Notes under the pieces: generated by a model | Told to the model about the DNA's origin: nothing | The model's input: only the letters and a program-made list of their open reading frames with translations | The model's database searches: none | Translations under genes and position numbers: made by a program | Shown: piece after piece, positions 6,645 to 16,042 of the stretch | How the letters are laid out: every line of letters begins with the position of its first letter | How positions within the stretch are numbered: the stretch's first letter is position 1 | Assembly: GCA_024645175.1 (NCBI GenBank) | Contig: JAHEGB010000008.1 | Location: forward strand, 1 to 49,260 | Origin: Microbacteriaceae bacterium | GTDB taxonomy: Bacteria; Actinomycetota; Actinomycetes; Actinomycetales; Microbacteriaceae | Direction of reading: 5' to 3' | DNA: 49,260 nt

Positions 6645-7183
6645 TTAGCAAATTCACTAAGCAATCGGTTCACCTGCAAAGGTGAGCCGATTCTTATTTT
6701 GGCGACATCTGGCAATGCCTCGAAGAGTCGCTCATAGCGCAAGCGATTTCTAGCGTGCGTTGTCCAAGACCAAAGCAAGACATTCAACTCGGCATCGCGA
6801 CTGAACATGTTCTTTGCCGATTCACGATTGCCGTTCCATAGCTGTTTTCTGCTGACAGCTCGCCAGAGTGTTCTGCGTAAAAGCCGCCACATGACAAACC
6901 ATCTCGGATAGTCAAGCCAAATCAGGTGCGTGATTCGCGGGTTCAATTCTTCTCGAACAACTGAGTAGTTTCCGTCGACTACCCAGTTGGATTGGGCTGC
7001 GAATTTCGCCACTCTTGATTTGAAATCATTCTCGGGCAGGGGAGTCCAGTCGGCCTGGTGATGCAAAGAATCTAGTTCGAGGTGCTGAATGCCTAAGCGT
7101 TTAGCGAGGTCTCTAGCAAGGGTTGTCTTGCCAGAACCAGATGTGCCAACAACCTGAATTCGATAGTTATTCGAGGTTGGCAT
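6641..7183 (-). CDS. P-loop nucleotide kinase-like protein (adenylate kinase/FlaR-like)
   Basis: About 180-residue P-loop NTPase of the group often annotated as topology-modulation or AAA family protein. The Walker A motif is GTSGSGKTTLA at residues 12-22. ELDSLHHQADW provides the lid/acceptor region, WVVDGNYS is a conserved family motif near residue 67, and ITHLIWLDYP is the Walker B-like strand. The real substrate is unknown for these proteins. The start ATG lies inside the end of the upstream TipAS gene (17-base overlap), so the two are co-translated. The 3' end carries a terminator hairpin that serves the opposite strand. Confidence 0.8.
   Translation of the reverse strand: MPTSNNYRIQVVGTSGSGKTTLARDLAKRLGIQHLELDSLHHQADWTPLPENDFKSRVAKFAAQSNWVVDGNYSVVREELNPRITHLIWLDYPRWFVMWRLLRRTLWRAVSRKQLWNGNRESAKNMFSRDAELNVLLWSWTTHARNRLRYERLFEALPDVAKIRIGSPLQVNRLLSEFAN
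6663..6700 (+). terminator. terminator of ctaCDF, inside the convergent kinase gene
   Basis: A 12-bp stem with one G-U pair (left arm 6663-6674, right arm 6681-6692, loop TGCAAA) is followed on the plus strand by CTTATTTT. It lies 18 bases after the ctaF stop but within the last codons of the kinase gene read on the other strand. Confidence 0.75.
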
Positions 7184-11836: not shown

Positions 11837-11894
11837 ACCCACGCCCTCTGCTTAAACGGGCTAATTAGGGCGAATTCATGCGGTTTTTCACTAA

Positions 11895-11900
11895 TAAACT
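11895..11900 (+). promoter_or_regulatory. -10 box TAAACT, predicted leaderless start of trpD
   Basis: TAAACT ends seven bases before the ATG at 11908, and there is no Shine-Dalgarno sequence. It supports the 11908 start over the upstream in-frame ATG at 11878. Confidence 0.6.
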
Positions 11901-11907
11901 TGTCATC

Positions 11908-12972
11908 ATGAACTCATCCCAGTCTTGGCCAAATATTTTGGGCAAATTGCTCGCAAAGAGCGATCTCACCCGCGCCGAGGCAAGTTGGGCGATGGGACAA
12001 ATAATGTCTGGGGATTCTTCAGAAGCGCAGATTGGCGCGTTCATGATGGCTCTTCGCTCGAAGGGCGAGAGCGTCGAAGAACTCGCCGGGCTAGTCGATG
12101 TGATGCTGCAGCATTCTGTGATTCTTGACACCGGTTCAGACGCGGTCGACATTGTTGGCACCGGTGGCGACATGGTTGGCACCGTCAACATCTCGACGAT
12201 GGCATCGATCGTCGCGGCAGCTGCTGGGGTGCCGGTTATGAAACACGGCAGTCGCTCGGCATCGGGCAAGACCGGCTCGTCAGAGATGCTGGAGGTGCTC
12301 GGCATTCGCCTAGACCTATCACCAGAGCGAGTTGCCGAAATTTTTGCCGAAATCGGCCTGACTTTCTTCTTTGCTCCCGTTTTTCACCCGGCAATGCGCC
12401 ATGTAGCCCCAATTCGCAAGGCACTTGGCGTGCCAACCACTTTCAACTTCTTGGGCCCGCTTGCTAACCCGGCTCAGCCGCTAGCCACTTCGCTCGGCGT
12501 GGCAAATCGATCGATTGCACCGCTAATGGCTGCCGAAATGGCTGCCCGAGGCCGAAATGCCCTAGTTTTCAGGGGTTCAGACGGTCTCGATGAGCTCACA
12601 ACCACCGGAAACAGCGAAATTTGGCTGGTTCAAGGGGGAGAGGTTCGCGAATTCACGCTGAATCCGGCCGATTTGGGTCTAGATACCGCCGATTTGGCCC
12701 AGCTGGTTGGTGGCGACGCCCACCACAACGCAGACGTCGCCAAGAAGCTGCTCGCTGGCGAGCGCTCGGGCAACTTCGCGGCCATCCGTGATGTGGTGGC
12801 CCTGAACGCTGCGGGAGGGGTCGTTGCTTATTCGTTGGGATCGAACCAGATCGAAACCCAGGCAGATTTGAACGCCGCATTTGCGACCGCGCTGCAGAAA
12901 ACTTTCGCGGCGATTGATTCTGGCGAAGCCGCGCAGAAACTATCTGACTGGATGGCAGCGAGCCAGGCCTAA
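11908..12972 (+). CDS. trpD: anthranilate phosphoribosyltransferase
   Basis: Second step of tryptophan synthesis, joining anthranilate and PRPP in the cytosol. About 354 residues from the chosen start. The PRPP/Mg site motif DIVGTGGDMVGTVNIST lies near residues 80-96. KHGSRSASGKTGSSEMLE is the family's glycine-rich anthranilate/PRPP loop. NFLGPLANPAQP and the GSDGLDELT Mg-binding acidic motif are also present. I use the ATG at 11908 rather than 11878 because a -10 hexamer lies seven bases before it. It stands alone, away from other trp genes. The dif site follows 44 bases after its stop. Confidence 0.93.
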   Translation: MNSSQSWPNILGKLLAKSDLTRAEASWAMGQIMSGDSSEAQIGAFMMALRSKGESVEELAGLVDVMLQHSVILDTGSDAVDIVGTGGDMVGTVNISTMASIVAAAAGVPVMKHGSRSASGKTGSSEMLEVLGIRLDLSPERVAEIFAEIGLTFFFAPVFHPAMRHVAPIRKALGVPTTFNFLGPLANPAQPLATSLGVANRSIAPLMAAEMAARGRNALVFRGSDGLDELTTTGNSEIWLVQGGEVREFTLNPADLGLDTADLAQLVGGDAHHNADVAKKLLAGERSGNFAAIRDVVALNAAGGVVAYSLGSNQIETQADLNAAFATALQKTFAAIDSGEAAQKLSDWMAASQA

Positions 12973-13016: not shown

Positions 13017-13044
13017 ACTTGACATAATGTTCATTATCGGCGAT
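13017..13044 (-). other. dif: dif, XerC/XerD chromosome dimer resolution site
   Basis: On the minus strand the 28 bp read as an 11-base XerC arm ATCGCCGATAA, a six-base centre TGAACA and an 11-base XerD arm TTATGTCAAGT. The inner halves of the arms are inverted repeats (ATAA/TTAT). It aligns base for base with the layout of E. coli dif and, from memory, with the actinobacterial dif consensus (CCGATAAT...ACATTATGTCAAGT). It lies in the 83-base gap between the convergent ends of trpD and the Nudix gene, a neutral position. It marks the replication terminus region, and most genes to its right lie on the minus strand, as expected for leading-strand coding. Confidence 0.85.
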
Positions 13045-13055
13045 AGGGAAAAGCC

Positions 13056-13517
13056 CTAGACCAGGTGGTGCTTCAAAAACTCGACCAGACCGGATGGTCC
13101 TACGATCTCGCCAGATTCGATTAGCTCTTGCAGTGTCCACCAGCGATATTCCAAAACGTCGCGACGTTCGTCGTCGGTCCAGGCCGAATCGTCGAGTTCA
13201 AAAGTTTCAACCTTTAGTTGAAAGAAATAGTCAACGTGCGTGTGAAAGTTCACGCCATCGCCCCATAGCCATTTGCCGTCGGTTTGCCAGATTTGCTCGC
13301 CAAGCTGCTCAGCCGTTGCGCGAATGCCGGTTTCTTCGGCCAATTCACGCATGGCGGCCTGCTGAACGCTCTCACCGGGGTCAATGCCGCCACCAGGTGT
13401 GATCCAGCGGGGTTCGAGCTGAACTTCTGGGTCAAAATGCGTTTTGAGCAGAAAAATGCGATTCTGGGCATCGAGCAACAGAACCCTTGCCGTTTCGCGG
13501 TGTTGACCTGGTTGCAC
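13056..13517 (-). CDS. Nudix hydrolase
   Basis: 153-residue pyrophosphohydrolase acting on nucleoside-diphosphate-linked compounds, exact substrate unknown. The Nudix box GGIDPGESVQQAAMREL followed by AEETGI is complete (G-x5-E-x7-REL-x-EE-x-GI) near residues 43-65, with the metal-binding glutamates present. The C-terminal part is rich in Trp and acidic residues. The start is a GTG six bases after the stop of the upstream membrane-protein gene, so the two are probably co-transcribed. Its 3' end lies 11 bases from dif. Confidence 0.88.
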   Translation of the reverse strand: MQPGQHRETARVLLLDAQNRIFLLKTHFDPEVQLEPRWITPGGGIDPGESVQQAAMRELAEETGIRATAEQLGEQIWQTDGKWLWGDGVNFHTHVDYFFQLKVETFELDDSAWTDDERRDVLEYRWWTLQELIESGEIVGPSGLVEFLKHHLV

Positions 13518-14141: not shown

Positions 14142-14909
14142 ATGACTAACAATGCGTACCTCTCCCCTGTGGGTTTCAGGTTTCTTGCACACCGAGGTCT
14201 TGCCGTTGCTGCCGATGGGCGTCTGTTAGACGAAAACACAGCTGAGGCCTTTGTCAGAGCGCTAGAAGCCGGAGCCACTCACCTAGAAACAGACGTTCAG
14301 GCTTCAAAAGACGGTGTGGCCGTCATTTGCCACGACGCTGATCTTCTGCGCATTGCCGGGGTGAACAGCAAGGTTGCCGACCTAACCTGGCAGCAGTTGT
14401 CTGAACTAAGGCTCGAACACGGTTCGTCTTTGATTACCCTCGAGCAGGCGCTGACTCGGTTCACGAACGCCAAATTCAATATCGATATCAAGGATGCCGC
14501 CTCGGTAGAGCCAACGGTCGCTGCAATCAAAAGTCTGGGGGCAACCGATCGAGTGTTGGTGTCTAGCTTCAGTGAGAAACGACGAATTGCTGCGATTAGC
14601 CAATTGCCAGGAGTTGCAACTTCAGCCTCGGCAAGCAGACTGCTGAAGATTTGGTTCGCCTGGCGTTTTGGCTTCAAGCGCCAGTTGTCGAAATTGCTTA
14701 GTGACATAGATGCCCTGCAGCTGCCGGTGTCACGCGGAGCGTTTCGATTCGATTCTGAGGCGTTTATCGCAGAGATTGCCCGACACGCAGTCGAACTGCA
14801 CTTCTGGACCATCAACGACCCTATGCTTGCTCGAGTGCTTCGCGCTCGCGGTGCTCACGGAATCGTAAGCGACCGCATAGACGACATAATCGTCGCGCTC
14901 GCGGAATAA
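14142..14909 (+). CDS. glycerophosphodiester phosphodiesterase
   Basis: TIM-barrel enzyme of about 255 residues that hydrolyses glycerophosphodiesters to glycerol 3-phosphate and an alcohol. Active-site motifs are LAHRG (His and Arg near residues 16-18), DENTAEAF, the metal-binding HLETDVQ pair (Glu, Asp) and the second catalytic His in VICHDADLL. FNIDIKD and HFWTIND are the conserved barrel strands. No signal peptide is seen, so this is a cytoplasmic UgpQ-like form. A GTG lies one codon upstream, but the ATG at 14142 has the better spacing (five bases) from GAGAGG. Confidence 0.88.
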   Translation: MTNNAYLSPVGFRFLAHRGLAVAADGRLLDENTAEAFVRALEAGATHLETDVQASKDGVAVICHDADLLRIAGVNSKVADLTWQQLSELRLEHGSSLITLEQALTRFTNAKFNIDIKDAASVEPTVAAIKSLGATDRVLVSSFSEKRRIAAISQLPGVATSASASRLLKIWFAWRFGFKRQLSKLLSDIDALQLPVSRGAFRFDSEAFIAEIARHAVELHFWTINDPMLARVLRARGAHGIVSDRIDDIIVALAE

Positions 14910-15332: not shown

Positions 15333-16042
15333 ACAGAACGCTTAAACAGTCGGGCTATTCCCCACTTCGTAACCAGCCATAGTGCCTCGAGCACTATGGC
15401 TGTGTTCATTTTCGATGCTCCCAATTCACGTTCTACGAAGGTGATCGGAACTTCTTTCACGCTGGCTTGCTGCTGAATTGAGCGCCAAGCCATCTCGACC
15501 TGAAACGAGTATCCGTGAGATGAAACCTCTTGCAAGGGCAACTGCTTCAGAAGAGAAACTTTGTAACACCTAAAGCCGGCAGTCATGTCGCGCACTTTGG
15601 TGCCGAGCATTAGTCGGGTATACAGGTTGCCAATGCGCGAGATTAGCTTTCGCGAAATTGGCCAGTTGACCACTGCTCCCCCGCTAATCCAGCGAGAACC
15701 GATGACCAGGTCGGCGTCTACCTCGAGCAACTTGCTGAGGTCTTGAGCTCTGTGACTTCCGTCGGCGTCCATCTCGACAATTCGCTCGTAGCCTCTTTCG
15801 AATGCCCAGTCAAAGCCTGCGAGGTAGGCAGGGCCAAGCCCCTCTTTTGCTGCGCGATGCAACACAAAAATCGAGTCGCTCAGGCTGGCAAGTTCTTCTG
15901 CGATGTCGCCTGTCGCATCGGGGCTGTTGTCATCGACAATCAACAGGTCAACGTTTGCGTTTAGTGAAAGCAACTGCTCTGCAGAGTTCCGAATATTTTG
16001 CTTTTCGTTGTAGGTCGGCATGATTACCAGGACTTTATTCAC
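15329..16042 (-). CDS. ppm1: polyprenol monophosphomannose synthase (GT2)
   Basis: Family 2 glycosyltransferase (237 residues) that transfers mannose from GDP-mannose to polyprenyl phosphate on the cytoplasmic face; the product feeds lipoglycan and protein mannosylation. The N-terminal motif IMPTYNEKQNI, VDDNSPDATG and the metal-binding MDADGSHR are visible, and there are no C-terminal transmembrane helices. It starts eight bases inside the end of lnt. In mycobacteria the two activities are fused in one protein; here they are two overlapping, translationally coupled genes, which supports the assignment over a generic GT2. Confidence 0.9.
   Translation of the reverse strand: MNKVLVIMPTYNEKQNIRNSAEQLLSLNANVDLLIVDDNSPDATGDIAEELASLSDSIFVLHRAAKEGLGPAYLAGFDWAFERGYERIVEMDADGSHRAQDLSKLLEVDADLVIGSRWISGGAVVNWPISRKLISRIGNLYTRLMLGTKVRDMTAGFRCYKVSLLKQLPLQEVSSHGYSFQVEMAWRSIQQQASVKEVPITFVERELGASKMNTAIVLEALWLVTKWGIARLFKRSV

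Follow-up and report, generated by a model that had tools for sequence, protein, structure and literature searches.

The 28 bp on the minus strand at positions 13017–13044 of the window (the whole 49,260-nucleotide stretch of DNA analyzed here) are the dif site, ATCGCCGATAATGAACATTATGTCAAGT, of an actinobacterium of the Rhodoluna clade, and we place the probability of the whole explanation by dif, XerCD and FtsK at about 97%. Strong support for this identity comes from copy number, conservation, the presence of partner genes and a switch in the direction of polar motifs. The site is a well-known kind of landmark, marking the terminus end of the chromosome, and is most likely the single place where this small freshwater actinobacterium resolves joined chromosome copies.

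A single 11-6-11 site and its partner genes

Read from 13044 to 13017 on the minus strand, the sequence is ATCGCCGATAA-TGAACA-TTATGTCAAGT, an exact 11-6-11 arrangement in which two inverted 11-bp arms surround 6 bp and match the consensus of the clade. By comparison with the published dif of Frankia alni, ATCGCCGATAA (13034–13044, minus strand) is the predicted XerC-binding arm and TTATGTCAAGT (13017–13027, minus strand) the predicted XerD-binding arm; the central TGAACA (13028–13033, minus strand) is the strand-exchange region, whose middle positions differ between species. With a profile built solely from the dif sites of other genera, the site scores 41.9 bits and the next-best position in the window −0.1 bits. 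In 1.97 Mb of sampled DNA from the genus, three true dif sites score 38–47 bits and the best other position reaches 9.7. A chance match to the 28 bp is ruled out. The source genome is a 73-contig draft totaling 1,289,338 bases (80.7% complete); within it, 13017–13044 is the sole copy even when up to three mismatches are allowed, and the complete relatives also carry one copy per chromosome. The preliminary description had proposed a minus-strand XerC/XerD site with arms close to the actinobacterial dif consensus and no second copy in the genome; re-reading of the strand, the profile score, the closeness to the F. alni site (CACGCCGATAATGCACATTATGTCAAGT) and the search of the draft contigs bear out each of these points, and the comparison with relatives that it called for gave an equally favorable answer, as described below.

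XerC, XerD and an FtsK with a gamma domain are all encoded in this genome. A family search of the draft recovered two tyrosine recombinases, XerC and XerD. XerD lies above its equivalog cut-off; XerC, whose gene adjoins dprA, scores 320.8 bits, just under the NCBIfam XerC cut-off of 335.15 but over that for tyrosine recombinases in general. FtsK is encoded with its alpha, motor and gamma domains.

The core of the site, CCGATAATNNACATTATGTCAA, searched with up to two mismatches, is present in 103 of 119 relatives spanning ~20 families of the order, almost without exception as a single copy, and a reversed control pattern gave zero matches in the same search. In the window's own genus, 59 of 66 genomes contain the core. 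In the remaining seven, trpD is cut at its 3′ end, lies flush with a contig end or is not present in full; because these genomes lack the stretch at the 3′ end of trpD, dif is seen wherever that stretch has been assembled. Two genomes of the same family that have no core match (G069 and G071) hold diverged sites (TGATAAT..ATTATGTCAG), one of which, in G071, adjoins trpD; apart from these two, a looser pattern applied to the 16 relatives without a match returned mostly noise. Among 52 sites from the genus, CCGATAAT, CATTATGT and AA are invariant, as is the CCGATAA of the XerC arm; variation falls in the outer bases of this arm and in the spacer, and the flanks are saturated. As judged from this alignment, the footprint is the pattern of a binding site for two proteins, independent of the neighboring genes.

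Polar motifs and proposed dimer resolution

The decisive test of dif came from the polarity of GGGGAG and (C/T)GGGGGAG, motifs that emerged de novo when stretches of three complete Rhodoluna genomes were screened for words biased to one strand. In these stretches, copies pointing toward and away from dif number 254 and 28 for GGGGAG, 104 and 4 for GGGGGAG, and 53 and 0 for CGGGGGAG. All 13 copies of GGGGAG in the window face 13017–13044. On the left, plus-strand copies at 7039, 11685 and finally 12635–12640 (part of a GGGGGAG) point at dif; on the right, the first minus-strand copy, at 14162–14167, points back at it, followed by nine more minus-strand copies with 5′ ends at 15681, 19571, 20955, 26670, 29280, 34793, 40977, 43869 and 45746. 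The switch is thus observed on the organism's own chromosome within the window, and the rest of the terminus region is covered through its relatives.

Complete relatives show the switch at dif as well. In the complete genome G017, which was left out of motif discovery, though it is a close sibling of G047, 90 of 93 GGGGGAG copies face dif and their number per 100 kb drops steadily with distance from it; for GGGGAG, the best switch interval spans only 1.6 kb (530949–532534) and contains dif at 531335. For YGGGGGAG, the switch falls between 553752 and 556005 in G047 (dif at 554140) and between 789455 and 846912 in G006, R. lacicola (dif at 846497). Coding direction does not explain this polarity, because in lagging-strand genes the motif still points toward dif 68 times and away 4 times. 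Other candidates for guide motifs, GGGNAGGG, GAGAAGGG and GGGAAG, proved too rare or unpolarized. Elsewhere in the source genome, contig C12 is the only other contig with oppositely directed GGGGGAG copies, at 66952 and 76683, and these are its only two copies.

We propose that the site functions as dif does in E. coli and other bacteria, from which its binding, guidance and recombination steps are drawn. Once homologous recombination has produced a dimer of both daughter chromosomes, the polar (C/T)GGGGGAG and related motifs, which point at dif from both arms, would orient FtsK at the closing septum; that FtsK reads the G-rich motif in Rhodoluna is a step we infer. FtsK would then pump DNA until it reaches dif, where its gamma domain could activate XerD, allowing recombination by XerC and XerD between both copies of dif, within the 6-bp center, to release two monomers.

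Segregation endpoint and replication terminus region

The dif site at 13017–13044 is the endpoint of chromosome segregation. Replication most likely ends not exactly there but somewhere between dif and the locus opposite oriC. The preliminary description had stated that the window crosses the replication terminus: it does contain the terminus region and the endpoint of FtsK-guided segregation, but the implied meeting of the forks at 13 kb is the less likely reading: dif lies off the midpoint in complete relatives, and the fitted change in GC skew falls 50–80 kb away in three of them.

Measured from dnaA, dif lies at 0.396, 0.397 and 0.592 of the chromosome in G047, G017 and G006, respectively, and, by distance, at 0.427 in G062. 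Across these four complete genomes of the genus, it therefore lies 7–10% of the chromosome length off the locus opposite dnaA, leaving arms of ~40:60, and in other families of the order it lies near 0.5. That the asymmetry recurs in all four chromosomes is a mild surprise. In a published survey, only 113 of 2027 chromosomes were asymmetric by >5% (PMC6199493). In each of the four complete genomes, the shorter arm lies on the XerD/trpD side of dif. R. lacicola differs from the other three in having dnaA point the opposite way relative to dif, which suggests an inversion around the origin.

The earlier suggestion that dif is also the exact point where forks meet is unlikely, if still a serious contender. 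In its favor, the complete relatives show a change of dominant gene strand around dif, and at dif itself the skew of G047, G006, G062 and G017 is close to zero. Against it stand the ~40:60 arms defined by dnaA and the behavior of skew in G017, which falls at dif and then drifts gradually negative across the next 150 kb, toward the midpoint. The fitted change in GC skew is offset from dif by +81 kb in G047, −51 kb in G006 and −77 kb in G062, each time in the direction of the locus opposite dnaA; the intervals are wide and extend as far as dif or almost so. Moreover, P. aeruginosa with arms of unequal length completes segregation at dif but replication opposite oriC (PMC6199493). Taken together, the off-center dif, the gradual skew and this precedent make an exact fork meeting at dif not the better bet, and we describe the window as containing dif and the terminus region.

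Within the window itself, GC skew is +0.015 to the left of dif and +0.008 to the right, with no flip, a signal too weak to read at a scale of 36 kb. Skew at third codon positions was rejected as a terminus indicator, as it is dominated by the coding strand. On both sides of dnaA in G047 (contig C1, 0–190 kb and around 1310 kb), GC skew has in part the wrong sign, even though genes and polar motifs there run mostly in the expected directions.

Gene neighborhood, conserved flank and known systems

As the preliminary description had noted, dif occupies a short gap between convergent genes, here 83 bp between the stops of trpD (11878–12972, plus strand; 45 bp from dif) and, on the XerC-arm side, a Nudix hydrolase gene (13056–13517, minus strand), and genes to the right of dif are mostly on the minus strand (24.8 kb, versus 7.1 kb on the plus strand). 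The adjacency to trpD is kept across Rhodoluna: dif lies 12–121 bp from the trpD 3′ end in 57 of the 59 site-bearing genomes and 1.1 kb away in the other two. The distance between trpD and dif in other families ranges from 4 kb to hundreds of kilobases, where the two share a contig at all. There are practical implications. First, dif fixes contig orientation in an incomplete genome, with the left side replicating rightward and the right side leftward. Second, if this chromosome resembles those of the complete relatives, its shorter arm should lie on the XerD/trpD side. Finally, dif beside trpD offers a simple landmark for closing and comparing Rhodoluna genomes.

This neighborhood bears on two other identities for the 28 bp. 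Xer-dependent elements carry dif-like sites, and an integrated phage or plasmid that used the host XerCD could have left such an attachment site or its remnant here; contigs of several draft relatives do end near dif. Nevertheless, we consider this origin extremely improbable: the site is present singly, with no second half; no integrase gene lies nearby, the surrounding reading frames being trpD, Nudix and oxidase genes; the trpD adjacency is the same across the genus; and the polar motifs switch at the site. The draft contigs in question (G001, G057, G034, G060 and others) end at the trpD 3′ end or near dif, which may reflect an assembly effect of sequence common to co-occurring strains or variable DNA at dif. 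We give almost no credence to a terminator or other element of convergent genes that merely resembles dif. The 83-bp gap speaks for such an element, as do the 40-bp flanks, which on either side fold modestly better than shuffled controls. Against it, other families keep the 28 bp even though their trpD sits kilobases off or elsewhere, the site is not rich in G+C, and the region's one terminator-like match falls within the Nudix gene at chance level. A terminator reading of the flank was also set aside, the folding signal being weak and no stronger on the conserved side than on the opposite side.

Directly beside the XerD arm of dif, the genus carries a conserved flank of its own, AATAGATATTTGGC in this genome (13003–13016, minus strand), with the consensus AATGTTTATCTGGC. 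Assembled from this site and those of 51 relatives, the ~13-bp block averages 0.96 bits per column over 13 columns in the genus, compared with at most 0.39 in other flank windows there and 0.17 for the same block in other families; in the source genome, it is found at dif only. The end of the trpD transcript may account for part of the block, a reading to which folding lends no special support. A more speculative possibility, which we think rather improbable, is that dif in this genus gained the block as an accessory element, which could provide an extra contact for Xer or FtsK that helps XerD activation. If so, the contact would serve chromosomes in which dif lies well off the point opposite the origin.

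Actinobacterial dif was proposed in F. alni and predicted in 66 actinobacterial genomes (PMC3025954). The Rhodoluna-clade site has in common with CACGCCGATAATGCACATTATGTCAAGT of F. alni its 28-bp length, 11-6-11 layout and single copy near the terminus; CCGATAA and TTATGTCAAGT are identical in the two. They differ in the outer bases of the XerC arm and at one central base, positions that also vary from species to species. The genus-only conserved flank after the XerD arm is an addition relative to F. alni.

The polar motifs have an equally close precedent. (T/C)GGGGGAG and G(A/T/C)GGGGGA are actinobacterial architecture-imparting sequences that have already been used for placing dif in Corynebacterium (PMC2830990, PMC3164646), and the (T/C)GGGGGAG octamer found here points toward dif on both sides and is densest near it. 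Copies are far fewer, however, with 93 GGGGGAG in 1.34 Mb as compared with 856 leading-strand octamers reported for C. aurimucosum (PMC2830990, PMC3164646). The actinobacterial G-rich polar octamers thus hold in a streamlined genome of 1.3–1.4 Mb. Compared with the dif/XerCD/FtsK system of E. coli, the parts are the same, including the FtsK gamma domain, and the mechanism presumably is as well, whereas the arm sequences differ and the E. coli KOPS motif, GGGNAGGG, is rare here and less clearly polarized.
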